Origin: Terriglobia bacterium
GTDB lineage: Bacteria > Acidobacteriota > Terriglobia > Bryobacterales > Bryobacteraceae
Length of the DNA: 49,548 nucleotides
Assembly: GCA_020073445.1 (NCBI GenBank)
Contig: JAIQFE010000039.1
Location: 1 to 49,548, forward strand
Direction: 5' to 3'
Positions within the stretch are counted from its first letter, which is position 1; the number at the start of each line of letters is the position of its first letter. Under the pieces are notes generated by a model. The model had not been told where the DNA came from and ran no database searches. It saw only the letters and a program-made list of their open reading frames with translations. Of the stretch, positions 1 to 49,388 are shown one piece after another. The position numbers and the translations under genes are program-made.

Positions 1-165
1 TGGCGGACGGGCGATCAGATCGAGCGATGGGTTGGCTCAGGGTTGCTCGTCGCCGAGCGGCACTTCCGCAGGGTGATCGGTCATCGCCAGATTCCGTTGT
101 TGCTGTCCTCGATGGCTAACGCCGTTTCCAAGAAACCGATTGCGAAAGGAGCCGCCGTCGCGTAG
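1..165 (+). CDS. Transposase, C-terminal fragment (5' end outside window)
   Basis: Frame 1 is open from the first base to a TAG at 163-165 and encodes about 54 residues. The residues include DQIERWVGSGLLVAE followed by HFRRVIGHRQIPLLL, a pattern typical of the extreme C-terminus of IS256/Mutator-like transposases, which commonly end in a D-Q-x-x-R-W ... F-R-R-x-x-G-Y/H-R segment. The stop is followed by non-coding sequence that probably holds the right terminal repeat of the element. The family name rests on remembered C-terminal patterns and not on the catalytic domain, which lies outside the window. The alternative is a degraded remnant; nothing visible shows whether the rest of the gene is intact. 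Confidence 0.6.
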   Translation, partial: WRTGDQIERWVGSGLLVAERHFRRVIGHRQIPLLLSSMANAVSKKPIAKGAAVA

Positions 166-689
166 CCTATGAGGATCGAGAGTCGCTAACTTTCAACGGA
201 GTTCCGGGCAATCTCGCTTGAACAAGTCGTTCGGAAGGAATGCTTAAGCAAATGGCGGACTGTGGAAGGTCCTGCCATGGTCCAATCAGCGTTTCACAGT
301 GTGTGCCAGCGACACTAGCTCGCCCATCATCTAGATCGCAAAGTACTGATTAAGCGGCGGACCGGACCTCGCTCCGATCACTGAGGCACGTGGGCCAAGA
401 CTATGTGTTCTTCGCACAGGCTGCAGTCACTGGAGAATTCCTGGGAATCATTCGGTTCTTAGGAGTTCTGCACGAACCGCTCTCGAAACACCGGCAGACC
501 GTTAGGGGGACTATTGTGGGGAGAGTCGGTGAGTTTTTAACGACACAGCCTGATCGCCGTTTCGCGCAGGTGGCTGTCCTCTGTGCCGGGCGGGCGGCCG
601 GCCTGTTCAAGATGCTCGTCTTCGAACGGGCCGCCTTGCCTCGGGCCATTTGAGGTCGATCTCGAACGGGGTGTTTCCAGAGACTCCGC
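166..689. other. Intergenic stretch next to the left IS; no supported gene
   Basis: The first 100 bases or so probably include the right end of the transposable element whose transposase ends at 165, but the terminal repeat cannot be defined because its partner is outside the window. Two overlapping open frames (390-653 plus, 401-730 minus) lie on opposite strands. Neither resembles a known protein, has a ribosome-binding site or shows a domain, so I do not call either. No RNA gene was seen. Confidence 0.5.
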
Positions 690-2468
690 TCAGTGAATAT
701 CGACAAACACAGCGTTGGATGGAACTCCATCCACTGTCAAGACTAAATGTCCATCCTTGTTTCCTCTTGCATCAGTCGTCAGACGCACATTCACCTGATC
801 CAGACCCGGCACGCCTTCGCCGTTCGAGCCGGCATAATCGACCGGCATAGTGATTCCGCCGATCGTACATCCCACGTTGGCGAGCGAGGACCGGTTGCGA
901 ATACCCGTCGCAAATAAGATCAGGTAAACTTGCCGGTCGTCCAGCACAATCGCGCTGCCAGCGGGTAAAATCGTCTGTGATCCGTCGGCTTCAATACGTA
1001 GCGCGTAAGCCACCGCCTTGTTCCCTGGAAAGGCGAACAGCCCTGGCGCGATACCGCGAATTTCCGCTGTCACTAGAGATCTAGCTGCGCCGTTGATGAC
1101 TTCTAGCAAGATGTCGCCCAGAGCCGTCCCTGGGGGAACCTCAAAATTGATCTGCGAGGGTGAGACGTAGAGCAATGGGGCGAGGCGCTCGCTCCCGGCG
1201 CTATCGCGTACATTTAGGCTGATCCCGCCAAGGCTCGTGCCCGGGGCAGTCCTGTCGGCGCTTGCGGTGGTCGTCGCCAGACGCGCGCCGAAAAGAGAGG
1301 CCAGCGATTCGGGCGCCAGGGGCGAGGTCAGGCTCGCGCTAGAAACCGCGGATGGAGCGGGAATGTACAACTCAGAACCGCTGCCTCCCTTGAGCAGAAC
1401 TGTCCCGTCGGCGAGCGAGACCGGCCATCCATCGCTCCCGTCCAGCAGGTTGCCGGCAGCGGCAAATGTTCCCAAGGCAGGGTCGTAAAGTTCCGCGAGG
1501 CTGCAGTCGCCTTCACAGAGGCCACCTGAAATGAAAATCTTGCCGCCCGGAAGTATTGTGGCGGTATGCCAAGCTCTTGCTCGCACCAAGTGGCCCGTAT
1601 TCTCGAAGGTTCCAGTGGAAGGGTCGTACAATTCTGCGTTTTGCAGTGAATCTTCTCCGTCCGCGTCTGATGGATCGGGATATTCCTGGTTACCACCAAC
1701 GATCAAAACCTTCCCGTTCGCCAAGAGCGTGGCGGAGTGCCCGAACAGAGGTTGAGGCAAGTTGGCTGAATTTAAGGCGCTGAAAGTGCCAACTGTCGGA
1801 TCGTACAACTCGGCGTTGCCCCCGACCAAGAGAACCCTTCCGTCGGCCAGCAATGTGGCTGTGGGATGGAATACTGCTCCCAGATCTTCCAGTCTGGCGA
1901 ACGTGCCGCTGGCGGGATCGTACAGCTCAGCGGGCGCAGTTACCTCGTGAGTAGCATCGACACGTCGAGTCCCACCTGCTATCAGAACCTTACCGTTGCC
2001 AAGCAAAACGGCAGTCTGGTAAAGCTGAGCCGTGATCATATCTCCCGTGGGCTGGAAAGTTCCGGCGAAAGGGTTATAGATCTCCGCGCTGGATAAGACG
2101 TCGTTGACCGCGATTGACGTATATCCTCCCGCCACCAAAACCCGACCATCCTTCAGCAGAGTGGCGGACTGTCCACAACGTGCACTGATCATGCTACCGG
2201 TAAGCATGAATGTCCCGGTGGAGGCGTCGTAAACCTCCGCGCCACGGCCCCCGGTATAGAGGATCCCTCCGTCACGAAGAGGAGTTGCTGAACACGCACC
2301 TGAGTAGATGCTGGGAATGCCAGTCGCAACAACTATTCCCGCGGTCTGGGCTCTTGCACTCTGCGTGAGGCCGAGAAGCCCGAGCAGGAGCACTGGAAGG
2401 ACGGAACCAAGTTCCAACGGAACAAGGATCGAACGGTAGCTCAGGCCAGGTCGAAACGGAGGATTCAC
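690..2468 (-). CDS. Secreted kelch-propeller protein with TIGR03437 C-terminal domain
   Basis: The protein has 592 residues and starts with GTG at 2468, preceded by a good Shine-Dalgarno (AAAGGAG, 7 nt away). An N-terminal hydrophobic stretch ending in SARAQ (about residues 15-40) is a signal peptide. Residues about 45-370 hold repeated kelch-type blades, each about 50 residues, with a recurring A-E-L-Y-D-P-x-x-G-T-F strand and G-G turns; these fold as a beta-propeller. Residues about 380-592 match the TIGR03437 domain (LYVSPSQINFEVPPGT is its signature), which is common on exported Solibacter proteins and has no known function. It follows the dirigent-like gene by 45 bp on the same strand, and both carry TIGR03437-type tails, so they are probably co-transcribed. 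An extracellular binding role is likely; the ligand is unknown. Confidence 0.85.
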   Translation of the reverse strand: MNPPFRPGLSYRSILVPLELGSVLPVLLLGLLGLTQSARAQTAGIVVATGIPSIYSGACSATPLRDGGILYTGGRGAEVYDASTGTFMLTGSMISARCGQSATLLKDGRVLVAGGYTSIAVNDVLSSAEIYNPFAGTFQPTGDMITAQLYQTAVLLGNGKVLIAGGTRRVDATHEVTAPAELYDPASGTFARLEDLGAVFHPTATLLADGRVLLVGGNAELYDPTVGTFSALNSANLPQPLFGHSATLLANGKVLIVGGNQEYPDPSDADGEDSLQNAELYDPSTGTFENTGHLVRARAWHTATILPGGKIFISGGLCEGDCSLAELYDPALGTFAAAGNLLDGSDGWPVSLADGTVLLKGGSGSELYIPAPSAVSSASLTSPLAPESLASLFGARLATTTASADRTAPGTSLGGISLNVRDSAGSERLAPLLYVSPSQINFEVPPGTALGDILLEVINGAARSLVTAEIRGIAPGLFAFPGNKAVAYALRIEADGSQTILPAGSAIVLDDRQVYLILFATGIRNRSSLANVGCTIGGITMPVDYAGSNGEGVPGLDQVNVRLTTDARGNKDGHLVLTVDGVPSNAVFVDIH

Positions 2469-2513
2469 AAAGATCTCCTTTGTTCTTTTCGTCTAGACAA
2501 CAGTTCCCTGAGC

Positions 2514-3581
2514 TTACTGAACGGGCATCTTCACGTCGCCCCCCACCACCCAAGCGGCCCGCAGTTGAACCGACGCTAAACACTTATTGTGCCGGCATGA
2601 GGCCCCAGCGGCTGCGTTGGACGGGACTCGAAAGTTGACTTGGTAATTGCCGACCGTGCCCGGATAACCGGCGGAATACAGCACCTCACTGGCTATTCCA
2701 TTCACCACCACATCGATTGGCGAATTTACAATTTGCTCGGGAGAGGCCGGGAACGGCTGGCCCGGATCTACCCCAGGGCGCGTTGGACCAAGCCCAGAAG
2801 CCACCAGCGTTAGTACTTCGCCTGCATTCGCGGGCTTAGCCGCCGACACCAAGGAGTAATCGCCAGAATGAACGATGACGGGGCCGGCGGTCGTCGATAC
2901 GATTTCTGGTGTCCTCAGGGGAATCAATTCAATAGCCATTTTCCACAGCCCGCCCGGGAAGGTGCGTCGATTGACCGGGTTCTCGAAGGTTGAAGTAGGT
3001 CTAAAGCTATTCATGATTGTCGCAGCTTGGCCGCGTGCACCAAGAAATGCTCCGGTCCCCCCGACTACCGCGAAGTTACCAGTCGGAGCCGATTTAGGAG
3101 CGCCCAGAGGAGGAGCGCCACCCGTGACGCCACTCAAGAGGATGGTGCCAAGTGCCGTCCCGTCTTCAAGCTGAATTTCGAGAACGATGTCCATTGTCTG
3201 AAATCGGGTGATGTCCGCAATCGCCTGGCTCCCTGTGGCGTTGCTGTTTAGATTGAACCATAGATCCTTGGCGATGGTCGTTCCTTTTGACCTCGTGCCA
3301 TTTATGGTCACAATATCTGCAATAAAGTAGCCGGGCGAGAACGTACCGGGAACAACGGGAGCTTCGATAACTGTTGAGGTTCCGTTCTTCTGGAGGTTTG
3401 CGTAGTTTTCCTGGTACTGCACTACGTGCTCCATGTCGATCGTCAGTACGGTAACAGGGGGCGTCTGGGCTGACATGACTGAGCCAAGCGCCAAAGCGGC
3501 ACAGCCCAGTCGCGAGACCGTATGGCGGCTCGTCGGTGTCATTAAAGTGGCCAAAACTTGGCCTCGAATTGTTGAGTTCAT
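2514..3581 (-). CDS. Secreted dirigent/AOC-barrel-like protein with TIGR03437-type tail
   Basis: The frame is open to 3749, but the start chosen is ATG at 3581 because GGAAAGGAAT lies just upstream and the next residues form a signal peptide ending near VMSAQ. The resulting protein is about 355 residues. The middle (about 45-190) contains NFAVVGGTGAFLGARGQ, which resembles the G-G-T-G-x-F-x-G-A-R-G motif of dirigent and allene oxide cyclase-like beta-barrels. The C-terminus (about 230-355) has the VGNYQVNFRVPSNAAAG pattern of TIGR03437 domains. In plants, dirigent barrels steer phenoxy-radical coupling or cyclisation; no such role should be assumed here. The gene is divergent from the winged-helix/TPR regulator across 131 bp and lies upstream of the kelch gene, with which it probably forms an operon. 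Confidence 0.7.
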   Translation of the reverse strand: MNSTIRGQVLATLMTPTSRHTVSRLGCAALALGSVMSAQTPPVTVLTIDMEHVVQYQENYANLQKNGTSTVIEAPVVPGTFSPGYFIADIVTINGTRSKGTTIAKDLWFNLNSNATGSQAIADITRFQTMDIVLEIQLEDGTALGTILLSGVTGGAPPLGAPKSAPTGNFAVVGGTGAFLGARGQAATIMNSFRPTSTFENPVNRRTFPGGLWKMAIELIPLRTPEIVSTTAGPVIVHSGDYSLVSAAKPANAGEVLTLVASGLGPTRPGVDPGQPFPASPEQIVNSPIDVVVNGIASEVLYSAGYPGTVGNYQVNFRVPSNAAAGASCRHNKCLASVQLRAAWVVGGDVKMPVQ

Positions 3582-3645
3582 AAAACAGTATTCCTTTCCT
3601 TTCAAGCCGGGGTGCCTTTTCAGTCGCACCGGATGCTCTAGACTA

Positions 3646-3679
3646 ACGGTGAGCCCGCTCAGAGTCCTTAAGTCACCGT
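3646..3679. promoter_or_regulatory. Inverted repeat in divergent promoter region (candidate operator)
   Basis: ACGGTGA at 3646-3652 is the exact reverse complement of TCACCGT at 3673-3679, with 20 nt between. The repeat is roughly midway between the divergent starts at 3581 and 3713. It could be an operator serving both genes, possibly for the winged-helix regulator itself. A 7-bp match can arise by chance, and PhoB-type winged helices more often bind direct repeats. Confidence 0.25.
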
Positions 3680-3712
3680 GAGAAACGCATGAAAGAGTTG
3701 TGAAGGAGTCCT

Positions 3713-5548
3713 GTGGACGAGACGAGGACGAGATTTTACAGGTTTGCACCGTTTGAACTCGACCTCGAACAACGACTGCTTCTCAACGGTGGCGAACTGG
3801 TACCTCTAACGCCGAAGGCCTTCGATACTTTGCTGGTTCTAGCAGCTCGGTCAGGTAAGGTTGTCGATAAGTCGGAACTGATCAAGCTGGTGTGGCCCGA
3901 TACGTTTGTCGAGGAGAACAATCTTACTCAAAACATCTCGGCTCTGCGAAAGGCCCTGGGAGCCGGGAATTTCATCGAAACAATCCCTCGTCGCGGATAC
4001 CGGTTCTTGGTCGAGGTTGAAGCCATCTCCGTGCCCAAACCCGGACCGGCGTCGGTTCCACTGGAGGCTCCCGCCCCCACGGAAATTCGCAAGCCCCGCC
4101 TAGGTCGGCCGGCGCTTTTGGGTTGGACCGGACTGGCGCTCGTGGCGACCTTAATTCTCATCGCCCTCGTCTCTGGACGACTCCCGGGAACAGGACAGAA
4201 TAGCAGTCGAGTGGACTCCCTGGTGGTCCTCCCTTTCGTGAACTTGACGGCCGATCCTGAGATCGAGTACTTCACCGACGGCCTCACTGAGGAATTGACG
4301 AACGCGATAGCCCATCTTGAAGGTGTCCGCGTCGTGGCGCGCACGACGGCGTTCCATTTCAAAGGCGCCACACTGGATATTCGCTCCATAGCACAGCAAC
4401 TGAATGTAGGCGCGGTGCTCGAAGGTAGCGTACGCAGACAGGACAGACACTTGCGCGTGACCGTGCAACTGAATGATGCGCGAAGCGGATATCACATCTG
4501 GTCGCAAACCTACGATCGCGGCGAAGGAGACATTCTTGATATCCAGGAAGACATATCCAATCAAGTCGCTCGCACGATACGGCCGGGCACTGCGATAGTG
4601 CCGCCCGGCACAAACGATCGTGAGGCCCACACCGCATACTTGTTGGGGCGGTTCCACAGAAGGAGGCCAGACCGGGAATCCATCAATAAAGCGGTTGCGT
4701 TCTTCCAACAGGCCATCAGCAAGGATCCCAGGTATGCCGCCGCGTATGCAGGCTTGGCCGAATGCTACCTGCTCCTGGCTCAGGAGAATGCGATGTCACC
4801 AGAGGAAGCTCAAACCCGCGCCAGGGAGGCGATCCGGCAAGCGCTGGAGCACGACGCCAATCTGGCCGAGGCGCATACGACGCTGGCGACAATGTATTTG
4901 CTGCTGGATCGCGACTGGCCGGCCGCCGAACGGGAGTTCCGGCAAGCCATCGCACTAAATCCAAATGACGCCGCGGCTCATCATTGGTTCTCGCACTACT
5001 TAGTTGCCATGGGTCGATTCCCCGAATCGCTTGTTGAAAGCCGCAAAGCATTGGACCTCGACCCTTTGGACGTGCTGATCAGCGCTCATCTCATTTGGCA
5101 CTACATTTACGCCGGCGATTTCCAGAGCGCGATCAAGTCCGGGCTACAGACGCTCGATCTTGAACCTAGTGCTGAACTGCCGCAATTATTCTTGACCTGG
5201 GCTTACGAAGATTTATCGCAGTGGGACAAGGCCATCGATGCATTGCAACGCTCCGACAGGGTTCATCCGGATCCGTCGATGCTCCAGGCTGCCCTTAACG
5301 CAGGTGGCCCCCCCAGCTATTGGCGGGCCCGTCTGGTATTCCTTGGAGCTCAAAAGAATCCGGAGAACTATTTTCTAGCGGTATATCATGCCAGGCTAGG
5401 CGAAACGGACAAGGCTTTGGACTGCCTGACGCTGTCGCTGCGATTGCGGGAACCCAATCTAATCTACCTAAAGGGCGAACCTGCTTTCTCCGGACTGAGA
5501 GGGAATCCGAGGTTTAAGGCGCTGACGGCCGCGATCAAGTTGCCCTGA
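3713..5548 (+). CDS. Membrane winged-helix transcriptional regulator with TPR sensor region
   Basis: The protein has 611 residues and starts with GTG at 3713, with AAGGAG 4 nt upstream (a tight spacing). Residues 10-102 form an OmpR/PhoB/CadC-type winged helix, with a recognition region containing NNLTQNISALRKALG and the wing RRGYRFLVEVE. A single membrane helix covers about 135-155. Residues about 167-290 (LVVLPFVNLTADPE ... VGAVLEGSVRRQ) resemble the TolB/FlgO-like domain found in adenylate-cyclase-type regulators, followed by TPR repeats at about 305-600 (for example YAAAYAGLAECYLLL and DAAAHHWFSHYLVAMG). This is a ToxR/CadC-like layout: cytoplasmic DNA binding with an extracytoplasmic sensor. 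It is divergent from the dirigent-like/kelch pair, so control of those genes is plausible but inferred. Confidence 0.88.
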   Translation: MDETRTRFYRFAPFELDLEQRLLLNGGELVPLTPKAFDTLLVLAARSGKVVDKSELIKLVWPDTFVEENNLTQNISALRKALGAGNFIETIPRRGYRFLVEVEAISVPKPGPASVPLEAPAPTEIRKPRLGRPALLGWTGLALVATLILIALVSGRLPGTGQNSSRVDSLVVLPFVNLTADPEIEYFTDGLTEELTNAIAHLEGVRVVARTTAFHFKGATLDIRSIAQQLNVGAVLEGSVRRQDRHLRVTVQLNDARSGYHIWSQTYDRGEGDILDIQEDISNQVARTIRPGTAIVPPGTNDREAHTAYLLGRFHRRRPDRESINKAVAFFQQAISKDPRYAAAYAGLAECYLLLAQENAMSPEEAQTRAREAIRQALEHDANLAEAHTTLATMYLLLDRDWPAAEREFRQAIALNPNDAAAHHWFSHYLVAMGRFPESLVESRKALDLDPLDVLISAHLIWHYIYAGDFQSAIKSGLQTLDLEPSAELPQLFLTWAYEDLSQWDKAIDALQRSDRVHPDPSMLQAALNAGGPPSYWRARLVFLGAQKNPENYFLAVYHARLGETDKALDCLTLSLRLREPNLIYLKGEPAFSGLRGNPRFKALTAAIKLP

Positions 5549-6351
5549 GACTGACTACAAGTGGGCTGCAGCAAGCCTGGCGTCGAACGACAGATGGTTC
5601 TGGGGGGAGCCACACAACGTCATCGGCGGTCCGGCGCGCTATCTCAAGTCGAGATGAAAAGCGCGAGTCGAAATCGAAAAGAGTCTGCTCCACCTTTTCA
5701 TAGAGATGCGTCCTGATCCAGCCGCGGATTGAGGTAGATGCCTGCAACTGGTAGAGATAGCACGTAATGCCATCCAAAGCTATTCCCTGGGTGAATGGAC
5801 CGAGCCCTGATTGATGCCGAGTTATCTTTCCGTAATTTGAACCGACGCGTGACCAAGAGTTCAAGCTCCCCACCCGCAGCACGGCAACACTAGGCGCACG
5901 TGCGTCGCAGGTCATGTGAGGCGCGATGCCGGGAAGCGTTCCCTGCCCTTCTTCGAACTGTTTGAACCACTTGCGTACCTGCCTAGATCTCACCCCGCCG
6001 CACCAATCAGCAGGCGCGTTTGGCAAGTTACCGAAATTCAGCAGGCCTCGAAAATGAATCGAATCTTTAAGCCTGGAGACCGCCCACCGTTTTCGAAACA
6101 CAAGGTAACGCTGGAAGGAGAGGATTGAATTCCGCGTATCCCGTATCCTAGTGTTTTGGTATCCCAAAAGAGAGTGACGTCCAATCTGGATGGCTGGACG
6201 TCGATTTGAAGTTCCACGGGCCTTCACTTCCTTACTGCGATTACTGCGTTAAGTGGTCCGCAGATCGCAGAAGCCCGGATTTCCTGGCTTTTGATGGTCG
6301 GGATCCAGCGCCATGGTCGCATATGTTGTCTGTTTCCAATCGCTGAGTAAG
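5549..6351. other. Non-coding or decayed stretch before the tRNA scar
   Basis: About 800 bp with no recognisable gene. A 230-codon minus-strand frame (5535-6227) overlaps the regulator's 3' end and shows no domain, no signal peptide and no clear ribosome-binding site. The stretch contains an 8-bp inverted repeat at 6176-6202 and ends at the tRNA-Gly 3'-half fragment. That arrangement fits the distal end of an old integrated element, in which non-coding decay is common. Confidence 0.5.
6176..6202. repeat. Short perfect inverted repeat
   Basis: GACGTCCA (6176-6183) and TGGACGTC (6195-6202) are perfect reverse complements separated by 11 nt. The segment GCTGGACGTCG inside and next to the right arm recurs in the tRNA-Gly fragment at 6359-6369. 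This may be chance, a protein-binding site, or an arm-type site of the element that used the tRNA. Confidence 0.35.
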
Positions 6352-6396
6352 TTCCCAAGCTGGACGTCGCCGGTTCGACCCCGGTCTCCCGCTCCA
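6352..6396 (+). other. tRNA-Gly(CCC) 3'-half fragment; candidate att site of an integrated element
   Basis: These 45 bp read as the 3' half of a tRNA: anticodon loop TTCCCAA (anticodon CCC, 6352-6358), 3' anticodon stem GCTGG, five-base variable loop ACGTC, T-stem GCCGG, T-loop TTCGACC, T-stem CCGGT (five pairs, one of them G-U), acceptor strand CTCCCGC, discriminator T and encoded CCA (6394-6396). The upstream bases do not pair with GCTGG, and no GCGGGAG acceptor partner is seen in 5549-6351, so the 5' half is absent and the copy cannot be functional. Integration into a tRNA gene by a tyrosine recombinase leaves exactly such a 3' duplicate at the far end of the element. By that geometry the element would lie to the left (lower coordinates), with the intact tRNA beyond the window. 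No integrase is visible here. Confidence 0.8.
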
Positions 6397-6832
6397 TTTA
6401 ACCCCTTTTAACAGTGGTTGTTAGGCCAATCCCCGACTCGTCGATTTCTGGTCGGGACTCCAGAAGACTCCATTCGCCGTTTACACTGCCTCCTCGGCGC
6501 CTTGGAAGCTCGCGAAAAACGCCTGTCGCTGGTTGCGTAGCTCGTGGACGCAAAGGATGGGGGCGTGAGCAACTGGCTGGATTCATTTCCAGGCGAAACG
6601 CGTGACACGGCCAAGTGACCGCTTACCCGAATTACCGGCCCCGATCCGATCTCTCGTTCTTAATCCGATCCGACTTCCTAGCCGTTCAGTCTCATCGGAC
6701 AAGGGTCGTTGCCTATAAGCTCCGCATCGCCATTCCATCAGAATCATTTATGGATGGATGGCCGACGATCCGTTGGGCTACAGAGTCGAATACCCCAGGC
6801 AGTGCGACGGATGGCTCGGGCTTCGACTCCCC
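6397..6832. other. Intergenic stretch downstream of the first kinase; no supported gene
   Basis: About 436 bp between the tRNA fragment and the stop codon of the first kinase gene. Only short overlapping frames without domain content are present. No convincing terminator hairpin was recognised by eye. Confidence 0.4.
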
Positions 6833-9433
6833 TTACTTCTTCAGCGTGGCTTGCCAGTTGGTGACGACGGTCAGAGGCGGAGCGGTGACCTCGCCACCAG
6901 CGGAGAGCAGCATCAGGAACTGGCTGCCGTCGGCATTAGGTTGATACTGGAACCCAAAGACGTCCCAGTGCGGCTCTGGCTGGCTGAATAGTTCGTGCGG
7001 CACTCCGAACATAAGCTCCGGACCGGTTTTGACGTCAACCGCCATCAGAGCGTTATTAGTGCTGGTGATAAAGTAAAGCTCCTTACCATCGGTTCTCCAG
7101 TGCGGGTATCCACCGCCGTTCACTGATACCGGGTGTGCGGCTCCGCCCGGCACGATCGACTCGACATAGATTTCATTCCGGCCCGAGGAGTCCGAGGTGT
7201 AAGCCATCCAGCGACCGTCGGGGGAGATGTGGCCGTCTCGCTCCGCGGCGGGGGTTTGCTTGAAGGGCCGGGGCTTTTGATCGCTTTTGTCCAACGGCAG
7301 CAGCCATATATCAGCCTTCGTGGTGGAACTTGTTTGCGAGTACACAAGTAGCCTGCCGTCCGTGGACCAACTAGTTGCCGTGCTGTCTGTCCCTTGGACC
7401 GTCAAGGCGAGCTCTTGCGCCGAAGCCACGGCTTTGCTGAAAAGCCGATCGATCGGGTAGGCAGAAAATATGACGGTGGAGTTATCGGGGGACCAAACGG
7501 GCGCGTAGGATGAATCGAAAGTCCCGGCCGTAAATTTCTGTGTGGTTCCGCGCGCAACGTCCCGCATCCAAAGGTCCCCTTTGATGGATTCAGCCGCTGT
7601 GGAATAGACTAGTTGGGTTCCATTGGGAGACAGCGCGAAGCCCGTGACGCCTCTTTGCTTCAAGAGAGACTTGCCGTGTTTGCCGGCGTGGTCCAGCCAA
7701 ACGATTTCCTTTTCCTGATTGGCAGTTTCGCCCGCCGCATATAGCAACAGGCCGTCCGAAGAAACGGTGAAATCGGCGTAACCAGTGTTCCCTCGAGACA
7801 GCAAGGATTCCGCCAAAGGGAAGGCCTCTCCGGTGGTCTTCAACTTGGCCGCGTCGAACGGTTGGGCCATGAGCGTCGCCTCGCGGTGGAAGAGGATGTA
7901 ACCGTTGGTTTGGGATCCAAGGGATGGAGTGAATTGGGTCATGGAGAGGACCGAGGAGATGCGAACGGGAGGGCCGCCGGTGACAGAGCCCACGTAGGTG
8001 CCAACGTGATTGCTCTGGGTTACTTCGATCGTATATAGAAAGTGATCCGAGCCAGGGAGAAACGTCGGGAAGCGGAGCGAATCTCCGACGTCGTCGCCGG
8101 GGAGCGGCAGTTTGATTGGAGTTTCCGGGCCCGCCGTTCCGTCACCGGACACGGAAAGGCGGAAGAGACCGCCCTTCACCGCCGGAGCGAAAACGATGGT
8201 GCCATCTGGGCCCCAAGTGCCGCCTCGGCCGTCGGGAGTGGGGGCGAGATCGGTGGCTGGTCCACCTGCAAGGGCCACTTGTCTCAGTTTCGTGCGGGAG
8301 AAGAACGCGATGTGGGTGCTATCGGGAGACCAGAATGGATAGCTGGAGCCCTCGGTGCCGGGAATTTCGCGATCAAGCCCAGAATCGAGCTGCCTGACAA
8401 ACAGGCGGCCAGACTCATCGTTGCCGGTTGGGACGATGAAGGCGAGGTAGCGGCCATCGGGGGAGAGTTGGAAATGGGTAAATCCGAAGGGGCCGGGGCG
8501 CGTGAGCTGCGTGCGGAGGCTTTGCTGCGCGGGCGGCGTTTCGTGGAAGTGGATCCAGGAGACTGCCACAGCCGCGATGGCGATCGTGGCGGCAATGGAG
8601 GGCCACAGCCAATTGGTGGGTTGTTGCGCAGGCTCGGCTAGCAGCAGGTGGTGGTCGCCAATGGCTTGCAGTCGCCGCTTGGGATCCTTTTGCAGGCAGG
8701 CTTCGAGCAGGCGGCGAACCTTGCGCGGAATGGCGCTGAGATTAGGCTCTTCCTTGACAACGCTGGCCAAGGTTTCGGTGAGATCCGCGCCCCTGAATAG
8801 GCGGCGGGCGGTGAGCATCTCATAGAGCACGACGCCGAAGGCCCAAATGTCGGCGCGAGCATCGACGGGTTTGCCCCGGGCCTGTTCGGGGCTCATGTAG
8901 GCCGCTGTGCCGACGATAACGCCCGTTTGCGTGAGCGTCATCGAGAATGTGGGCGAATCTTCGCTTTCTCTGGCCGTTGGCGTACCGCCGACCTTCGCAA
9001 GGCCGAAGTCCAAGACTTTGACCGTGCCGTCGCCTTTGATCTTGACGTTTCCAGGTTTTAGGTCCCGATGAGTGATGAACTTCTGATGCGCGGCTGCCAG
9101 AGCCTCAGCGATCTGCTCGGCGATGCGCAGGGCTTCGTCGAGGGGGATGGGGCCTTCTCCGATGCGCTCCTTGAGGGTTGGACCTTCTATCAGCTCCATG
9201 ACCAGGTAATCTGGACCCACGTCGTAGATGTGGCAGATGTTCGGATGATTGAGGGCGGCGATGGCGCGGGCCTCGCGCTCAAAACGCTCGTCGAAACGTT
9301 GGGAGGAAATCTTTATGGCGACGTCGCGTCCTAAGCGAGGGTCATGCGCGCGATAGACCTCTCCCATGCCACCCTTGCCGATGGGCGCCAGTATTTCGTA
9401 CGGGCCGAGTTTGTCGCCGGAAGAGAGCGGCAT
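6833..9433 (-). CDS. Transmembrane Ser/Thr protein kinase with TolB/WD40-like propeller (paralogue 1)
   Basis: The protein has 866 residues. The kinase domain (about 12-270) is complete: glycine loop GKGGMGEV at 19-26, catalytic Lys41, helix-C Glu54, HRDLKPGN with Asp124, DFG at 142-144, and activation segment MSPEQARG near 180. One membrane helix lies at about 274-294. The remaining ~560 residues are a TolB/WD40-like beta-propeller with repeated LSPDGRYLAF / WSPDSTHIAF strands, placed outside the membrane. The architecture is PknB-like: an extracytoplasmic sensor coupled to cytoplasmic phosphorylation of Ser/Thr. No Shine-Dalgarno precedes the ATG at 9433, but a promoter-like motif shared with paralogue 2 lies 34 nt upstream. 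Substrates are unknown and no phosphatase gene is nearby. Confidence 0.92.
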   Translation of the reverse strand: MPLSSGDKLGPYEILAPIGKGGMGEVYRAHDPRLGRDVAIKISSQRFDERFEREARAIAALNHPNICHIYDVGPDYLVMELIEGPTLKERIGEGPIPLDEALRIAEQIAEALAAAHQKFITHRDLKPGNVKIKGDGTVKVLDFGLAKVGGTPTARESEDSPTFSMTLTQTGVIVGTAAYMSPEQARGKPVDARADIWAFGVVLYEMLTARRLFRGADLTETLASVVKEEPNLSAIPRKVRRLLEACLQKDPKRRLQAIGDHHLLLAEPAQQPTNWLWPSIAATIAIAAVAVSWIHFHETPPAQQSLRTQLTRPGPFGFTHFQLSPDGRYLAFIVPTGNDESGRLFVRQLDSGLDREIPGTEGSSYPFWSPDSTHIAFFSRTKLRQVALAGGPATDLAPTPDGRGGTWGPDGTIVFAPAVKGGLFRLSVSGDGTAGPETPIKLPLPGDDVGDSLRFPTFLPGSDHFLYTIEVTQSNHVGTYVGSVTGGPPVRISSVLSMTQFTPSLGSQTNGYILFHREATLMAQPFDAAKLKTTGEAFPLAESLLSRGNTGYADFTVSSDGLLLYAAGETANQEKEIVWLDHAGKHGKSLLKQRGVTGFALSPNGTQLVYSTAAESIKGDLWMRDVARGTTQKFTAGTFDSSYAPVWSPDNSTVIFSAYPIDRLFSKAVASAQELALTVQGTDSTATSWSTDGRLLVYSQTSSTTKADIWLLPLDKSDQKPRPFKQTPAAERDGHISPDGRWMAYTSDSSGRNEIYVESIVPGGAAHPVSVNGGGYPHWRTDGKELYFITSTNNALMAVDVKTGPELMFGVPHELFSQPEPHWDVFGFQYQPNADGSQFLMLLSAGGEVTAPPLTVVTNWQATLKK

Positions 9434-9467
9434 CTGAATGAGTCAGCTAAGTTTAACCCATCAAGAA

Positions 9468-9500
9468 GCCGATAGCTCCCATCTGAATGACGGCGTATCC
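9468..9500 (-). promoter_or_regulatory. Conserved promoter-like motif upstream of kinase 1
   Basis: On the minus strand this reads GGATACGCCGT, 14 nt, CTATCGGC, ending 34 nt before the kinase ATG. The same two blocks occur 34 nt before the start of kinase 2 with a 10-nt spacer. The GGATAC/CTATCG pair is reminiscent of ECF-sigma promoters (-35/-10), but the sigma factor is not identified. Confidence 0.45.
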
Positions 9501-9657
9501 GGACAGAACTAGGTAATGGAAGGGTTGCCGACCATAGGGGCGCTGTCGGGGGCCACTTCCATCCTCGGGGGATCAAGTGGTTCAGTTTTTTGCGGACCAC
9601 GGCTTTGGTGACAGCGTAAGTCGATGCTCCTCGCCAAGTCTGATAAACTTACAAGCG

Positions 9658-18022: not shown

Positions 18023-19856
<1,834 letters not shown>

Positions 19857-19870
19857 GGCCGTGGTTCTCC

Positions 19871-21412
19871 TTACGGGAGGGCGAACGCGTACAGCGAACC
19901 GCCTCCGCCCACCACTATATACTGCTTGCCATCGAGCTCATACGCGATGGGACCGTTGCCCATCCTGCCGATGTTCTCGTGCCATAGGGTGGCTCCGTCG
20001 CTGGTGCGAAACGCCATCGCGTTGCCGGCTATGTCGCCGCTAAATGTCAGTCCAGTATCGGTTGTCAGTACGCCGGCCGTGCCCGCACCATCGCCGATCG
20101 GATGGTTCCAAACGATCTTTCCAGTCTGGTAATCGATGGCCCGAAGGAACGCCTTGCCTCCGACAGCATAGTCCGCGCCAGCCCAGCCGTAGGACCCGTG
20201 CTCGGATTTGAAGAAGTAGATGCCATAGCCGTCCTGAGCGCTGACAATGAACAGGCCAGTCTTCGGGTCAAAGCTTGGCGGGCGGAAGTTGGTGGCGCCG
20301 CTCTCGTTGGGCGCTACCAGAACGCCGCTTTTCGAGGGATACTTGGCCGGATCCGGAATGGGGTGTCCCTTCGCATCGACCCCCTTCGCCCAATTCACAG
20401 TGGCGAACGGCGTGGTCAGCAAGCTGTTCCCGTTCGTCCGGTCGAGCACGAAAAAGTAGCCGTTGCGCGAGGCCTGCATCAGCATCTTGCGAGGCTGGCC
20501 CTTGAAATTCGCATCGACGAGCACGGGGACTTCATTGGCATCCCAATCGTGCGTATCGTGCGGCGAGGCTTGGAAGCCCCAGACCATTTTCCCGGTGTCC
20601 GGATTGAGCGCCACGATGCTGCACGTCCAGGGATTGTTTCCCGGCCGGACCTCGCCATTCAAAACCGGCGTGGGATTCCCAGTGCCCACGTAGACCAGGT
20701 TGAGATCGGGATCGTAGGTGCCGGTAGTCCACATCTGGCCGCCGGTGGCTCCGCCGCTGTTCGGCTCCTTAGCTCCGGGAGGAGACGTGCTGTAAAAGAT
20801 CCACTGTGTCTTGCCGGTGTCCGCGTCAACGGATTTCAATTGACCCGGTAGGTTATCGAAATCGCCGGAAACGCCGACCAGGACATGATTACCCACCACC
20901 AGAGGAGCGTTGGTCGACCAATATCCCTTGTTGGAATCGGCAATCACGACGTCCCATTTAACCTTCCCGTCTTTCGCGTTCAGCGCGATCAGGTGGCAGT
21001 CGGGCGTGGTCAAATACACGGTGTCTTTGTAGATGGCCGCGCCGCGATGGCCGATGTGAAAGGCGTTGTTCGGTGGATTCTGATAGTGCCAGAGTTCCTT
21101 CGCCGTACGCGCATCGATGGCCCAGATGTTGTCCGGCAAGGTCACATAGAGTATGCCGTTCGACAGGATCGGCGACGCCTTGATCTGCTGATTCTGCCCC
21201 GTCTGGAAGCGCCACACCTGCTGTAGCTTGCCGACGTTTTCTGGAGTAATTTCGCTGAGATTGGAATGCCGCTGACCGGTATAGTTGCCGTGAAAAGTAA
21301 GCCAGCTATCGGCAGGCGGATGGAGCAGACTTTTGGGATCGACGGTTTGGGCGGAGGCGATCAGACCCAGCCCGATTCCGAGACTCAACAGAGCGCGCAC
21401 GTTTCCCCTCAT
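19871..21412 (-). CDS. PQQ-type quinoprotein dehydrogenase (periplasmic)
   Basis: The protein has 513 residues with a signal peptide (residues 1-23, ending IASAQT). Repeated tryptophan-docking blades characterise the eight-bladed PQQ propeller: LQQVWRFQTGQNQQIKASP near residue 50, AKELWHYQNPP, GKVKWDVVIADS, GKMVWGFQASPHDTHDWDAN (the W-D-x-N segment lies near the PQQ/Ca site) and GATLWHENIG. It lacks the vicinal Cys-Cys disulphide typical of methanol/ethanol dehydrogenases and has no haem domain of its own, so electrons probably pass to the adjacent di-haem cytochrome c. The start ATG overlaps the cytochrome stop by 4 bp (ATGA), showing translational coupling. The substrate (alcohol or sugar) cannot be told from the sequence. 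Confidence 0.85.
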   Translation of the reverse strand: MRGNVRALLSLGIGLGLIASAQTVDPKSLLHPPADSWLTFHGNYTGQRHSNLSEITPENVGKLQQVWRFQTGQNQQIKASPILSNGILYVTLPDNIWAIDARTAKELWHYQNPPNNAFHIGHRGAAIYKDTVYLTTPDCHLIALNAKDGKVKWDVVIADSNKGYWSTNAPLVVGNHVLVGVSGDFDNLPGQLKSVDADTGKTQWIFYSTSPPGAKEPNSGGATGGQMWTTGTYDPDLNLVYVGTGNPTPVLNGEVRPGNNPWTCSIVALNPDTGKMVWGFQASPHDTHDWDANEVPVLVDANFKGQPRKMLMQASRNGYFFVLDRTNGNSLLTTPFATVNWAKGVDAKGHPIPDPAKYPSKSGVLVAPNESGATNFRPPSFDPKTGLFIVSAQDGYGIYFFKSEHGSYGWAGADYAVGGKAFLRAIDYQTGKIVWNHPIGDGAGTAGVLTTDTGLTFSGDIAGNAMAFRTSDGATLWHENIGRMGNGPIAYELDGKQYIVVGGGGSLYAFALP

Positions 21413-22290
21413 TTCAGCGTATCCAGATAAGCGAAGACGTTGTGCATGTCGCCGTCAGTGTATTTCCCTAGTTGATCGAAGTGCACCGACATCGGGTCGT
21501 CAATCTTAAACTTCACCGCACTCTTTTCGTACGTCTGGCGCGCTCCCGAGGAATCCAGAACCACGATCGTGAATTCATCCTCGGTGGCCAAGGGTCCGGT
21601 CACGGTCTGGCCCGAGGCCAGCGTCACGGTGACTTTCGGCCGCGGTGGAGCGGGCCGACCGTTGGTGGGATTGAGCATCCGCTGGAGCAGCGCCAATCCC
21701 TGAAAGCGTGTAGCGATGCCAGCCAGATCGCCCGTGGCGGAATGGCACTTGGAGCAGCCACCGGCTCCGTTGAAGTAGCGCCGGCCTGCGGCCGCATTGC
21801 CAGTCGCCAGGTCCGAGGGATCCACCGCGCGGCGCCCTCCGCCCAACGCTTCGAATTTGGATTTCTGGTCGTGGATGAAGGCGACGATCGCGCCCAGATC
21901 GGCGTCACTCAGGTTAAACGAGGGCATACCCTGGTCCGGCCGCCCCTGACGAAGCAGGGTTCCGATCTTATCGCCACGCGTGTCTTCGGCGACGAGCTTG
22001 GAGCGCGTAAGGTCCGGTCCGGTTTCTCCCCCCGCGGCATCGCGGCCGTGGCAGAATCCGCATTGCGACGTAAATCGTAGTTCGCCGGCCTTAATCTGCT
22101 CAGCCGGATACGTTTGTGGCGTCACCGTTGGTGGCCCCGGCAGCGAGGCCGGGCTCTGAATGGGACTTCTCGCAACCTGTCCCTTCGCCGGACCATTGGC
22201 TCGACCAGCCACCTGGCCGCCAGGTCCCTGGGCAACCACCATGCCGACCCCTATCAGCGCGGCGGACAGGGTCCAAACGGTTTGCTTCAT
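21409..22290 (-). CDS. Di-haem c-type cytochrome
   Basis: The protein has 293 residues with a signal peptide (about 1-20). A first haem-c motif CGFCH is at residues 77-81, with GMPSFNLSDADLGAIVAFIHD (Met122 as likely distal ligand) following. A second motif CSKCH lies at 179-183. The C-terminal third (VTVTLASGQTVTGPL and DEFTIVVLDSSG) is beta-rich and resembles the extra segment seen in cytochromes paired with quinoproteins. It is the first gene of the run with the PQQ-type enzyme (4-bp overlap) and the ThuA protein, and is the natural electron acceptor of that enzyme in the periplasm. Confidence 0.88.
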   Translation of the reverse strand: MKQTVWTLSAALIGVGMVVAQGPGGQVAGRANGPAKGQVARSPIQSPASLPGPPTVTPQTYPAEQIKAGELRFTSQCGFCHGRDAAGGETGPDLTRSKLVAEDTRGDKIGTLLRQGRPDQGMPSFNLSDADLGAIVAFIHDQKSKFEALGGGRRAVDPSDLATGNAAAGRRYFNGAGGCSKCHSATGDLAGIATRFQGLALLQRMLNPTNGRPAPPRPKVTVTLASGQTVTGPLATEDEFTIVVLDSSGARQTYEKSAVKFKIDDPMSVHFDQLGKYTDGDMHNVFAYLDTLK

Positions 22291-22363
22291 CCTTGAGCAA
22301 TACTGACGAAATTCGCGCCCGAATGCAAATCGACGCTAGGCCGGTGAGCGTATTAGAGCCGGC

Positions 22364-23188
22364 CTAGACACGTTTGCGCGCCACGACGGCCGCGGTCATC
22401 TCGGACGCCACCTTGACCAATGCCGCCATCTTGGGGTGCACGGGCACGATGTCGACAGGGAAGCCGGCGGCTGCAAGCGATGCCGTCATCACTGGCCCCA
22501 CAGACGCGATGGCCGTATACTCGCGCAGAGCATCGGCGACCTGCGGTTGGATTCCAAGCCCCTCGGCGATCATCATGAGGTGGTCAAACTGGATGGAGGA
22601 GGTGAACAGGACTACGTCGACCTGGCGATCGGCCAACCGGCGCGCCGCCATTTGAAGCGGTCCGATATCGGCAGGAAGTTCCCAGCGGTAGAGCACGATC
22701 GGCGTAACGCACGCACCCAGTTTTTCGAGCGCGGCTTTCATCTCGACATTAGGACGCCCATATTCCTGCACGGCGATCCGCCGCTCCGTGCGAGCCGCTA
22801 CGGCTTCCACGATTTCTTTCCACGTGTTGGGTTCCGGGACCACGATTTGCGCGCGTACGCCCAGCTCGCGCAGAATCGGCAGGGGCTTGGGCCCGCGCGA
22901 CACGATGGTGACGCGACTCAAGGCCGAGCCGAGCCTGGCCTCGTTAGAGTGCGCGGCAGCCTGATCGCGCAGAAACGCTATCCCGGTGCCGGTCATGACG
23001 ATGACCATGTCGAATTCGCCGCCCTCCAGCCGCTCAACAAAGTGGATGGCCTCGCCCTGATCATCGAAAGCGCGCTCCTGGACCGACGGCGCGACGAATG
23101 GATCGCCCCCCTCCCTGCGGATGAGGGCTTCCATTTCCTTGGCGCGGCGACTTTCCAGGCTGAGAACGCGGAGTCCTGCAAATGGCAT
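22364..23188 (-). CDS. hemD: Uroporphyrinogen-III synthase
   Basis: The protein has 274 residues, with no signal peptide (cytoplasmic). The two-domain HemD pattern is visible: GLRVLSLESRRAKEMEALI at the N-terminus, VIVMTGTGIAFLRD near 65, RIAVQEYGRPNVEMKAAL near 145, VDVVLFTSSIQFDHLM near 205 and YTAIASVGPVMTASLAAAG near 243, which carry the conserved T-S and G-P-x-T segments. It cyclises hydroxymethylbilane to uroporphyrinogen III, the precursor of siroheme. It lies 31 bp after the outer-membrane barrel gene at the end of the nitrate gene run, so it probably boosts siroheme supply for NirB. The siroheme-specific methyltransferase is not in the window. Confidence 0.85.
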   Translation of the reverse strand: MPFAGLRVLSLESRRAKEMEALIRREGGDPFVAPSVQERAFDDQGEAIHFVERLEGGEFDMVIVMTGTGIAFLRDQAAAHSNEARLGSALSRVTIVSRGPKPLPILRELGVRAQIVVPEPNTWKEIVEAVAARTERRIAVQEYGRPNVEMKAALEKLGACVTPIVLYRWELPADIGPLQMAARRLADRQVDVVLFTSSIQFDHLMMIAEGLGIQPQVADALREYTAIASVGPVMTASLAAAGFPVDIVPVHPKMAALVKVASEMTAAVVARKRV

Positions 23189-23219
23189 GTATTAGAGCGC
23201 GGTAAGACTTTCCTCCAGT

Positions 23220-24671
23220 CTAAAACTTAAACATGGCCTCCACGTATCCGAATTCGCCATTTTTTCCATTCGGATAGATTTGCTCCATCGCCGCCAGACC
23301 CTGGGCGTATCCGAAGTATGCAGTGAGTGTTGTCCAGCGGTTCGCACGATACTCGACGCTGGTGTCGTACAGATTGGCCAAGGAACGCCGCCCAGAGGTC
23401 GGACGGCCGACGTAGCCGAAGGTCCACGGCTGAAACACCCCGCCGCCGCTGTACCAAAGGTCATTCGCATTGCTTAGGCGCAGCGCATGAAACTCGCTGG
23501 AAACCGTGATCTTAGTATGCGGACGCAGCACGAGTGCCCCGAAGCGATCCTCGGTGTTCATCATGTTGAAGAATGGAAACCGCGCGTAAAGACGAGGCGT
23601 CGGAAGCACCTGGAAGAAGGTCCCGTGGCGCGAATCTCCGGGATTGCCGTCGCCGGAGCCCATCGTGAACCCGCCTCGCAGCCATGGTTTTAGCCGCGGA
23701 AGAACCTTGGGTTGGAAGCCGCCCTCGACATCGAGAGCGTAGGCCCTTTGAGATTGCGTCCCCCATCTGCCGGTTTGTACGGCTCCCCACGCGAGAGCAT
23801 CGATCGTCCCGGCTTTCGTTGTGAACGCGTGCATGCTGTGCGCACCGAAAGTCTCGATGCGGATGTTCTCCGTCTCGTGGGCCCGGATCGCCGCAGAGCG
23901 ATTGTCGGTCTTCACGATATGGCGCCAATCGTCGTAATCGAGCATGAAGACGCGCGTGTCGGCTGCGTGATTTCCGTGTCCCCATTCGTGAGTGAAAGCC
24001 GCATAACCGAAGGCGGCGCGATTCCATCCCCAGCCGTCTGTCTGATACACGCCTCGCGTCGGAATGGCCGCCACGAACGTGAAATCGTTAGCCGGCTTGG
24101 AATACGAGAAACGCGCGCCGTCGAAGCCGCGCCCGACATCAGACCATCCGAACGTCCCAATCAGGCGCTGGCTGATACGATCGCGCTTGAGCGTCGCCAG
24201 CGTGGCGCTTTTGGGGACGATCTCCGTTCCGTCGTTGAACTCGAATCGTCCGACTTGCAGCGAGCCGGCTTCGCTGGGACCCAAGCCCTTGACCCGCACA
24301 TACAGTTGCTTTGGGAACACCATCCCGCTGTACTGGCTGTTGCCGTTCGCCGAGTAGTAGTTCGAGCCGAGGCCGAGCGCACCTTGGGGCGCCGGTGCGG
24401 TCGCCGTGTCCGGCAATCCGAGCAGGAAAGGAGCCGCGAATTCCGCGTCCCAATCCCAGCCCTTGCGATGCTCCGTAAGATTCACGCGAAGTATGTTGCC
24501 GCTGTAACCATATTCATTGTTGCCGGAAGACGGCTCGAACCAATCCCACGCGTAGGCGCGCGTGCGGAAGGTTCCTGTGACGACCACGTCACCCAGCTTC
24601 ATGGGCGTATCCGCGGATTGTCCAAACGATACGGTAGCGGCAAGCAGCGAAAGAACAAGAATGTTTCGCAT
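23220..24671 (-). CDS. Alginate-export-family outer-membrane beta-barrel
   Basis: The frame is open to 24878, but the real start is ATG 24671: a signal peptide begins there (MRNILVLSLLAATVSFGQ) and the preceding gene's stop ends just one base before. The product has 483 residues. Alternating strands run from about residue 25 to an aromatic C-terminus (EAMFKF), as expected for a barrel recognised by BAM. The sequence fits the alginate_exp family: LDYDDWRHIVKTDNRSA near 245 and GTFFQVLPTPRLYARFPFF near 350. In this location it more likely passes a small solute, perhaps nitrate, than alginate, as no polysaccharide genes surround it. It is translationally coupled to the NarK-type gene. Confidence 0.8.
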   Translation of the reverse strand: MRNILVLSLLAATVSFGQSADTPMKLGDVVVTGTFRTRAYAWDWFEPSSGNNEYGYSGNILRVNLTEHRKGWDWDAEFAAPFLLGLPDTATAPAPQGALGLGSNYYSANGNSQYSGMVFPKQLYVRVKGLGPSEAGSLQVGRFEFNDGTEIVPKSATLATLKRDRISQRLIGTFGWSDVGRGFDGARFSYSKPANDFTFVAAIPTRGVYQTDGWGWNRAAFGYAAFTHEWGHGNHAADTRVFMLDYDDWRHIVKTDNRSAAIRAHETENIRIETFGAHSMHAFTTKAGTIDALAWGAVQTGRWGTQSQRAYALDVEGGFQPKVLPRLKPWLRGGFTMGSGDGNPGDSRHGTFFQVLPTPRLYARFPFFNMMNTEDRFGALVLRPHTKITVSSEFHALRLSNANDLWYSGGGVFQPWTFGYVGRPTSGRRSLANLYDTSVEYRANRWTTLTAYFGYAQGLAAMEQIYPNGKNGEFGYVEAMFKF

Positions 24672-24672
24672 C

Positions 24673-26010
24673 CTAGTCTCCCATTGCCGCAGCGGTGGCG
24701 AGTTCGCCTGCCAAGCGGGCTTCGATCTCCGCACGCGCGGATTGCTCTTCGCTCTCAGAGAAGCGGACCACGAAGGTAAGCACGGAAACGACGGATATCG
24801 TCGCTCCGAGAACCAACAGCGCTTGGGTCCACGGCATGCTGCCTTTGAACAGGAACCCCGCGAGCACCGACCCGACATTGCCTCCGGCGCCTACGATCCC
24901 GGCGACCGCTCCCAGTGCACGCTTGTTCACGAAGGGAACCAGCGCGTACGTGGCTCCGTTCGACATCTTGATGAACAGCCCGGTTAGCATCATCGCCGCG
25001 ATCGCTAGCGGGAGCACACGCATCTGCGAGAACAGCATCAGGGCGAGCCCTTCGCAGCAGATGGTGGCGCCCAGCAGCAGAGCGCGTCCGCGGAGGCCCC
25101 AGCGCCGGTGAAAACGGTCGCTCACGATGCCGCCCAGAGCGCGCGCAAATAGGTTCATCATTCCGAACGAGCCGGCCACCACACCGGCGGCGGTCAACGC
25201 AAGGTGAAAATAGTCGGTGAAATACAGCGCCGCGATGTTGTCGATGGTCAACTCCATTCCGAAGCACGCGCCATACACCACAAACAGCGCCCACACCCGG
25301 GGATCGCGGCATGCAGTCGCGAATGCCGCGCCCGCGCCAGAACGGCTGGACAGCTCACCTCGGGCGCGAAGCTCCTTGAAATCGCCGTCCGCTGTGTCCC
25401 GGGTGAGCATGTAGTAGGCGATCCCGCACAAGAACATCGCCACTCCGGGCACGAACATCGCCATGCGCCATCCCCACCAGGAGCCCACACCCAAACTGAC
25501 GAATCCCGCGAACAACAGGGGCATCACAATTTGCGTGACCCCGCCGCCCAGGTTGCCCCATCCGGCCGACGCGGCGTTGGCGGTGCCGACGACGTTCGGC
25601 GCGAACATCACGGACGTGTGATATTGCGTGATGACGAAGGAAGCTCCGATGGCGCCAATCGCCAGGCGGAAGAGCAGGAACGTGCTGTAGTCGTGCGCCA
25701 GTCCGACGGCCATTACGGGCAGCGAACCAAGAATCAGCAGCCAGGCATACGCCCGGCGCGGTCCAATGTGGTCGCACAGCCAACCGATAAGCATCCGCAC
25801 GAGTACGGTGATCGCCACCGAAGCGATGGTCAGGTTGCCGATCTGTGCTTTTGTAAGGTGCAGCTCTTCGCGGATGACCGGCATCAAGGGCGCGATGCCG
25901 AACCATCCGAAAAAGCATAAGAAAAACGCAATCCACGACATGTGGAATGCGCGCATGGGAGCGCTGGAAAAATCAGCCAGGCGGATCCGGGTTGCTTTGC
26001 GAAAGTTCAT
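24673..26010 (-). CDS. NarK-type nitrate/nitrite transporter (MFS, NNP family)
   Basis: The frame extends to 26085; ATG at 26010 is preferred because AAGGAG lies about 11 nt upstream. The product has 445 residues with twelve predicted membrane helices. NNP features are visible: FFLCFFGWFGIAPLMPVI in TM1, RMLIGWLCDHIGPRRAY in the TM2-3 loop (the conserved Arg of nitrate binding) and the nitrate signature SAGWGNLGGGVTQ in TM5. The second half-signature is less clear (GIVGAGGNVGSVLAG). It imports nitrate, and perhaps nitrite, across the inner membrane for the reductases encoded upstream. The 141-bp gap to nirD may hold a secondary promoter; the next gene starts one base after the stop. Confidence 0.88.
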   Translation of the reverse strand: MNFRKATRIRLADFSSAPMRAFHMSWIAFFLCFFGWFGIAPLMPVIREELHLTKAQIGNLTIASVAITVLVRMLIGWLCDHIGPRRAYAWLLILGSLPVMAVGLAHDYSTFLLFRLAIGAIGASFVITQYHTSVMFAPNVVGTANAASAGWGNLGGGVTQIVMPLLFAGFVSLGVGSWWGWRMAMFVPGVAMFLCGIAYYMLTRDTADGDFKELRARGELSSRSGAGAAFATACRDPRVWALFVVYGACFGMELTIDNIAALYFTDYFHLALTAAGVVAGSFGMMNLFARALGGIVSDRFHRRWGLRGRALLLGATICCEGLALMLFSQMRVLPLAIAAMMLTGLFIKMSNGATYALVPFVNKRALGAVAGIVGAGGNVGSVLAGFLFKGSMPWTQALLVLGATISVVSVLTFVVRFSESEEQSARAEIEARLAGELATAAAMGD

Positions 26011-49126: not shown

Positions 49127-49326
49127 TGGTTTCCGCCTCCTCCCTCACAAACTGAAACAATAGACGCATCTGGGCGCCGAAAGTGTGGATAATCTCAATC
49201 GATATCGAGTATATTCCTGTCGTTCGCAGCGCGCAAAGCCCGCCCCCAAAGAATGCAGCGACAAAACGAACCCAAAAGTCACCGAGAACAAGGCCGCGCG
49301 GGGTCCATTTCCAGGTTTACGGTCTA

Positions 49327-49388
49327 AGAGCTTGCTGAAAAACTCTGCAGGGGCGTAGCCTCTAAGCAGAAGCAAACGTCTTGTAGTA
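49327..49388 (+). mobile_element. Left end of an IS element preceding the right-hand transposase
   Basis: GAGCTTGCTGAAAAACTC (from about 49328) is the kind of terminal repeat often found at IS5/IS1182-like ends, lying about 60 bp upstream of the transposase start. The right terminal repeat is outside the window, so the exact end and any target duplication cannot be verified. Confidence 0.45.

Follow-up and report, generated by a model that had tools for sequence, protein, structure and literature searches.

A 3′ half of tRNA-Gly(CCC) as the probable downstream end of an integrated element in a Terriglobia bacterium

The half tRNA and the element end that it probably marks

What does the 3′ half of a tRNA gene with no 5′ half beside it record? 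Such a half, with the sequence TTCCCAAGCTGGACGTCGCCGGTTCGACCCCGGTCTCCCGCTCCA, is found at positions 6352–6396 (plus strand) of a 49,548-nucleotide contig of a Terriglobia bacterium, which was analyzed as a whole and is hereafter called the window (contig C95 of genome G000). It is best read as a leftover half tRNA-Gly that marks an insertion of mobile DNA, i.e., as the scar (attR) left at the downstream boundary of an element that integrated here. The 45 bp are identical to bases 31–75 of the intact, 75-nt tRNA-Gly(CCC) gene of the same genome (G000:C82:7786–7860, minus strand). The half begins with the complete anticodon loop (7 nt, TTCCCAA) and ends with CCA, and at the 6352 boundary GTAAG stands in place of the tRNA 5′ stem CCAGC. 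A first-pass annotation of the window had claimed a tRNA 3′ half running from the anticodon loop to CCA, broken in that loop, and had proposed a search for an intact tRNA-Gly(CCC) sharing it; the exact match to the C82 gene, in which identity begins at the first loop base, bears out both claims and supplies the intact gene. ARAGORN and Rfam made no tRNA call in the window, as a half gene falls under their thresholds. No 5′ tRNA half that could complete the tRNA, an objection that the annotation had raised against itself, adjoins position 6352; the 60 upstream bases match an arm common to other scars.

Another objection of the annotation, that these 45 bp might occur only once, fails as well. 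When up to three mismatches are allowed, the 6.58-Mb genome contains six copies (five exact and one with two mismatches), one of which lies in the C82 gene, the only intact tRNA-Gly(CCC) found. Given that a reversed control pattern yielded no copies in the same search, the six copies are not due to chance. Besides the window scar, four copies lack a 5′ half: three exact copies at C16:996–1040 and C16:6189–6233 (both minus strand) and C80:3162–3206, and the copy with two mismatches at C54:2690–2734. The genome's other glycine tRNAs, with the anticodons GCC (C91) and TCC (C44), are each single copy under a related search pattern. The assembly is a draft of 102 contigs, and the six copies are spread over five of them; no joining overlaps were found among C82, C80, C54, C16 and C95, for which only the first 20 kb of C82 were compared. 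A candidate join of C16 and C95 through a 225-bp, 100% identical match (C16:9–233, i.e., L037:9–233, and window 49324–49548) was rejected, because both contigs end in the same orientation there; the match is a shared repeat where the assembly breaks.

The arm immediately upstream of the half (6292–6351, plus strand) is the element-side attachment arm, or P arm, with the consensus CgCC.TgaaCgccTAtGTtcTTTATTTtCAAtCgA. When scored with a matrix made from 79 other distinct scars, which left out the window and its homologue in G014, a related genome of another species, these 60 bases reach 30.3 bits; the runner-up among the roughly 99,000 positions of the two strands reaches 6.5. For the arm counts, copies of tRNA-Gly(GCC) were removed and six ambiguous copies, with CAGC upstream and no full 5′ half, were set aside. 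The C80 and C16:6189 scars match window positions 6285–6399 at 81–82%, and no such arm was found in the alignment of the C54 scar. On the other side of the core, counted over distinct loci, a motif near TTTTCAATAACTTA is present 3′ of 45 of 81 scars and of 45 of 117 intact CCC tRNAs, in comparison to 1.2–1.5% for shuffles and 2 of 18 Gly(GCC/TCC) genes; the sample of loci is uneven, and a few of them come from records titled as other phyla. In two scars of another genome (L079 and L080; G021:C68 and C143), the core begins with TTTCGACC instead of TTCCCAAG; a candidate reading is a variant crossover site or target.

The boundary itself is best seen by comparison with G014. The right end of the element (5788–6396, plus strand) is 95% identical (586/614) to G014:C72:13890–14503, the sole close match across the boundary among the matches listed, and the similarity ends exactly at CCA, after which the sequences diverge. 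The annotation had conceded that its reading would fall if relatives kept the same order across 6396, which G014 does not. Inside the core, the two genomes share the sequence from the anticodon loop to GACGTCG and differ in the T-stem with pairing kept (CGCCGG..CCGGT in the window vs CGTGGG..CCCAT in G014), and all three copies of G014 have G014's own T-stem. A host-specific T-stem is what displaced host 3′ halves predict, so the crossover most likely occurred within 6352–6369 (plus strand), where tRNA identity has begun and the host-like T-stem, which starts at 6370, has not. The anticodon loop at 6352–6358 (TTCCCAA) is probably the 7-bp crossover overlap.

The two sides of the scar differ in their conservation. 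Window positions 1–5787 have no match in G014, which therefore carries different cargo behind the same element end. At E ≤ 1e-5, this stretch is matched in 12 of 22 other genomes of the genus, nearly always by the repeat at 1–215; outside the repeat, only 5 of 22 have matches, the longest being 303 bases at 68%. Positions 18900–24690 are matched in 22 of 22, in many by just a few hundred bases, with about 3.4 kb at 84% in G014 and 79% in G020; at most 13 candidates were scored per genome in both searches. Because the left side is nearly unmatched and the right side is conserved in the genus, the island lies on the left, as first annotated, with its left end beyond the start of the contig, and the chromosome on the right. 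The chromosome-side flank (6397–49548) contains kinase genes from 6833 and the conserved DNA at 18900–24690, and we infer that it begins exactly at 6397; neither an attachment motif nor an integrase is found directly 3′ of 6396. Among the matches listed, window 6796–9503 is 72% identical to G014, in kinase genes that belong to a large family. The annotation had also suggested looking for the uninterrupted locus in relatives. The left flank of the C82 tRNA is present in G020, and in no fetched locus is it joined to the right flank of the window. A search for the host right flank through the end of G020:C93 did not find it; the protein fragment there has a single match in the bacterium's own genome (38%, C91).

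Integrases and the order of copies in relatives

The C82 tRNA is followed, after about 72 bp, by the end of a convergent tyrosine integrase gene (PF00589; PHROG integrase), which is where the first-pass annotation had suggested looking for one. A second such gene (PF00589), also convergent with the tRNA strand, comes about 59 bp after the C80 scar on its 3′ side. No integrase was found inside the window or at the window, C54 and both C16 scars. The C54 and C16:6189 scars still have the downstream motif; the C16:996 scar, like the window scar, has neither motif nor integrase, so these two scars look terminal. The six copies may belong to one array, with the window scar probably the last of the tandem. 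With regard to a possible integron, which would have an IntI integrase, two of three integrases scanned in NCBIfam match only a XerA-type recombinase model, at 38.7 and 19.4 bits vs a cut-off of 220, and the third matches none.

With three integrases as queries, by which distant integrases could be missed, tblastn found whole or partial integrase matches within 600 bp 3′ and on the opposite strand at 22 of 65 tabulated copies. One of the 65 is a Gly(GCC) tRNA, one locus is counted twice, and seven of the unmatched copies have less than 400 bp downstream. Integrase remnants of 22–219 aa are found at six loci (L077, L074, L155, L162, L170 and L123). In 18 IMG/VR stretches, 15 of 19 copies have an integrase match, one of only 57 aa. 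In named genomes, among the matches listed and by the same queries, most copies have no integrase match. When IMG/VR loci are excluded and a copy is counted only if it has a match or else 400 bp or more of downstream sequence, a match accompanies 14 of 41 scars and 12 of 62 intact tRNAs. At one locus (L172, G008:C28), contrary to the usual layout, the integrase is on the 5′ side of the intact tRNA-Gly(CCC) and shares its strand. On G030:C1, the sequences after the tRNA and after a scar 172 kb away (L132 and L133) are alike beyond the core, and after each comes an integrase that shares only about 30% identity with the three queries. A serine recombinase beside a C16 scar was also weighed as the responsible enzyme; in the set of loci compared, C80 alone carries a relative, and the serine recombinase was dropped because tyrosine integrases adjoin the tRNA and scars in relatives too.

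The order of the copies is consistent among relatives. Nine fetched contigs, chosen among the matches listed for having more than one copy, combine an intact tRNA with one or more scars (G019, G020, G203, G100, G134, G148, G109, G186 and G030). In all nine, the copies share a strand and the intact tRNA comes first at the 5′ end, with tRNA-to-scar distances of about 3.6 to 172 kb. The repeats in these relatives are thus in line, 3′ of one RNA gene and on the same strand, as expected of a tandem array. The G109, G186 and G030 contigs are 4.9–6.7 Mb long, and that of G186 was read as circular. Five further contigs (G000:C16, G214:C7, G103, G123 and G139) have two scars on a shared strand and no called tRNA. 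The outermost scar of G186 is old, because both of its sides are conserved in IMG/VR contigs (88%, 2.6 kb). A 190-bp piece homologous to the flank of G169 sits between two G186 scars, so that stretch is not one simple element. In genus g56, the DNA left of the tRNA aligns at 80% (G143/G196) and 89–91% (G169/G089/G186) over 1.9–3.6 kb, and in the same comparisons nothing aligns directly right of CCA.

Segments between copies fall into short and larger ones. The eight shorter than 6 kb, which were read whole (C16, G019, two of G020, G100, G214, G103 and G134), have no full-length match to the three integrase queries; two contain remnants, of 22 and 219 aa, and four have the downstream motif. Seven of the eight larger segments (G203, two of G186, G109, G148, G030, G139 and G123) have a full-length match; G203 was read whole, the remaining segments at the ends.

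Of 200 genomes in the family, 129 carry one or more copies, whether intact or not, as do 16 of the 23 in the genus. Among the matches listed, titles of the copy-bearing genomes include Bryobacter, Bryobacterales, Candidatus Solibacter and Paludibaculum MAGs and some other phylum names. Seven of the 23 genus genomes, which are drafts, have no copy, and three drafts (G001, G014 and G016) have scars and no intact tRNA-Gly(CCC) under the pattern used. These genomes suggest that the target tRNA may be dispensable, and G001, G014 and G016 may have lost it.

Serial integration and its alternatives

The copies, the order in relatives, the arms, the adjacent integrases and the host-specific T-stem are seen directly, and we propose that they are very probably explained by serial (tandem) integration and decay at one tRNA-Gly(CCC) hotspot. 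A tyrosine integrase would recombine the tRNA-Gly(CCC) gene with the attP site of an element, in which the element's own arm adjoins a copy of the gene's 3′ half, and the crossover would fall in or near the anticodon loop. The element's 3′ half would rebuild the tRNA, and the old host 3′ half would be displaced to the far end of the element (attR). Repeated at the rebuilt tRNA, this would produce a tandem of tRNA, newest element, scar, older element, scar and host flank, and later deletion of integrases would leave integrase-less remnants between scars. The recombination itself and the age order of the elements are our interpretation of this layout. The integration history that the annotation had proposed is supported by the copies, the arms, the integrases and the G014 boundary; the five scars in the bacterium's own genome and the same pattern in relatives extend it.

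The alternatives concern different parts of this model. Retro-copied or transposed tRNA halves, scattered without any integration at the tRNA, could account for six copies over five contigs of a draft genome, and hardly for a fixed break in the anticodon loop, a common arm, one strand, a fixed order after the intact tRNA, integrases beside part of the copies and single-copy Gly GCC and TCC tRNAs; this explanation is close to untenable. An assembly chimera, in which the 45-bp repeat misjoined an element end to an unrelated contig at 6352–6396, concerns only the right-hand neighbor of the window scar. A repeat of this length, present in six near-identical copies in a draft with repeat-bearing contig ends, could in principle mislead a short-read assembler, but the junction of arm and core is found independently in G014, and the same architecture recurs on the very long G109, G186 and G030 contigs, which make a chimera very unlikely. 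There is also some chance that the window scar is internal, with another decayed element right of 6396 and the chromosome further right. Window 6567–6769 is 89% identical to G014:C20 (L156:9134–9336), beside an ORF that resembles an ArdC-type antirestriction gene, an 85-aa integrase remnant comes after the homologous scar of G014, and the C54 and C16:6189 scars indicate that a scar can precede an element without integrase. These observations are set against the absence of an attachment motif or integrase after 6396, the 72% relative in G014 of the kinase gene from 6833 and the conservation of the DNA from 18.9 kb, and we consider the internal position possible and the less likely one.

A further reading applies to the short integrase-less units (3.3–5.3 kb, with one to a few genes), at part of whose ends arms are still recognizable. 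Instead of decayed remnants, they could be cassettes moved in trans by an integrase of the array, which we regard as improbable; if true, it would be a cassette system on a dispensable tRNA gene, integron-like in use and served by a phage-type integrase.

Related systems and cargo

Serial integration at an RNA gene is a well-known process. In the passages of the paper considered here, the Dehalococcoides ssrA islands are described as lying in tandem 3′ of one RNA gene, bounded by that gene and by repeats of the gene's 3′ end in direct orientation, with an integration module at the gene-proximal edge, a conserved motif directly upstream of the repeats and integrase-less members that were read as cis-mobilizable (PMC3146451). 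The hotspot studied here is like these islands in its tandem layout, gene-end repeats, gene-proximal integration module and motif upstream of the repeats. The two differ in that, according to those passages, ssrA islands have ssrA as target, a 20-bp repeat, insertion at the T-loop and an integrase tree that includes Ccr recombinases, whereas here the target is tRNA-Gly(CCC), the repeat is 45 bp, the break is in the anticodon loop and the integrases are tyrosine integrases (PMC3146451). By the description in part of another paper, tycheposons of Prochlorococcus are also tRNA-anchored, carry a tyrosine recombinase and cargo and span 4–200 kb, at other tRNAs and in other taxa than here (PMC10872708). 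Tycheposons would be recognized by a tRNA-linked tyrosine recombinase together with the core genes that the family shares; a tyrosine recombinase and a primase/helicase pair are present here. The additive tRNA-Lys island of Methylophilaceae, which the same portion of text describes as having repeats of the tRNA-Lys end, is close to this hotspot, again at another tRNA and in another taxon (PMC10872708). Accretion of ICEs, IMEs and CIMEs, as outlined in partial accounts for, e.g., Streptococcus, is of a related kind; here no conjugation or mobilization gene, and no relaxase, was found among the few proteins scanned. The genome paper of Solibacter usitatus, in the passages considered, reports candidate islands, tRNAs and many integrases and no such array (PMC3174227). 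In a literature search on integrase hotspots at tRNA-Gly in Acidobacteriota, we did not find a description of the tRNA-Gly(CCC) site. The 45-bp half together with the arm is a simple signature with which mobile islands of Bryobacter/Solibacter-type Acidobacteriota may be found and delimited, and if the model of serial integration holds, the arrays log insertions in sequence, with the newest beside the tRNA.

The cargo side of the window (1–5787), which is nearly absent from the genus outside 1–215 and whose left boundary is off the contig, encodes a Kelch-repeat protein with a TIGR03437 C-terminal domain (690–2468, minus strand), a second protein with a TIGR03437 C-terminal domain (2514–3749, minus strand) and a regulator with an OmpR-type winged helix (PF00486) and TPRs (3713–5548, plus strand). 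The TIGR03437 pair and the regulator had been named as cargo before, and they stand as such; the transposase tail listed with them was not borne out as a protein, and the contig-end repeat at 1–215, which has 12 further occurrences in the genome, several of them where contigs end, fits an insertion sequence and is probably the end of one. An ORF at 5535–6227 was rejected as a gene; it has no family match and straddles the start of the G014 similarity.

Elsewhere in the genome, two ORFs of primase/helicase type are found in the element upstream of the C80 scar, together with a serine recombinase that is truncated where the contig ends. On C82, the element next to the tRNA contains a CBASS-type pair of a cyclase and a cGAMP-activated phospholipase (L040:1009–2985). 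The cyclase matches SMODS at 44 bits (cut-off 26.5) and a PADLOC cyclase model at 217, with the NCBIfam cGAS model below its cut-off (61 of 150), and the phospholipase matches CBASS_lipase at 273.5 bits (cut-off 200). This anti-phage pair makes the hotspot worth searching for defense genes. On C16, a KAP NTPase (L037:9878–12055) has a PifA-like match of 220 bits in PADLOC.
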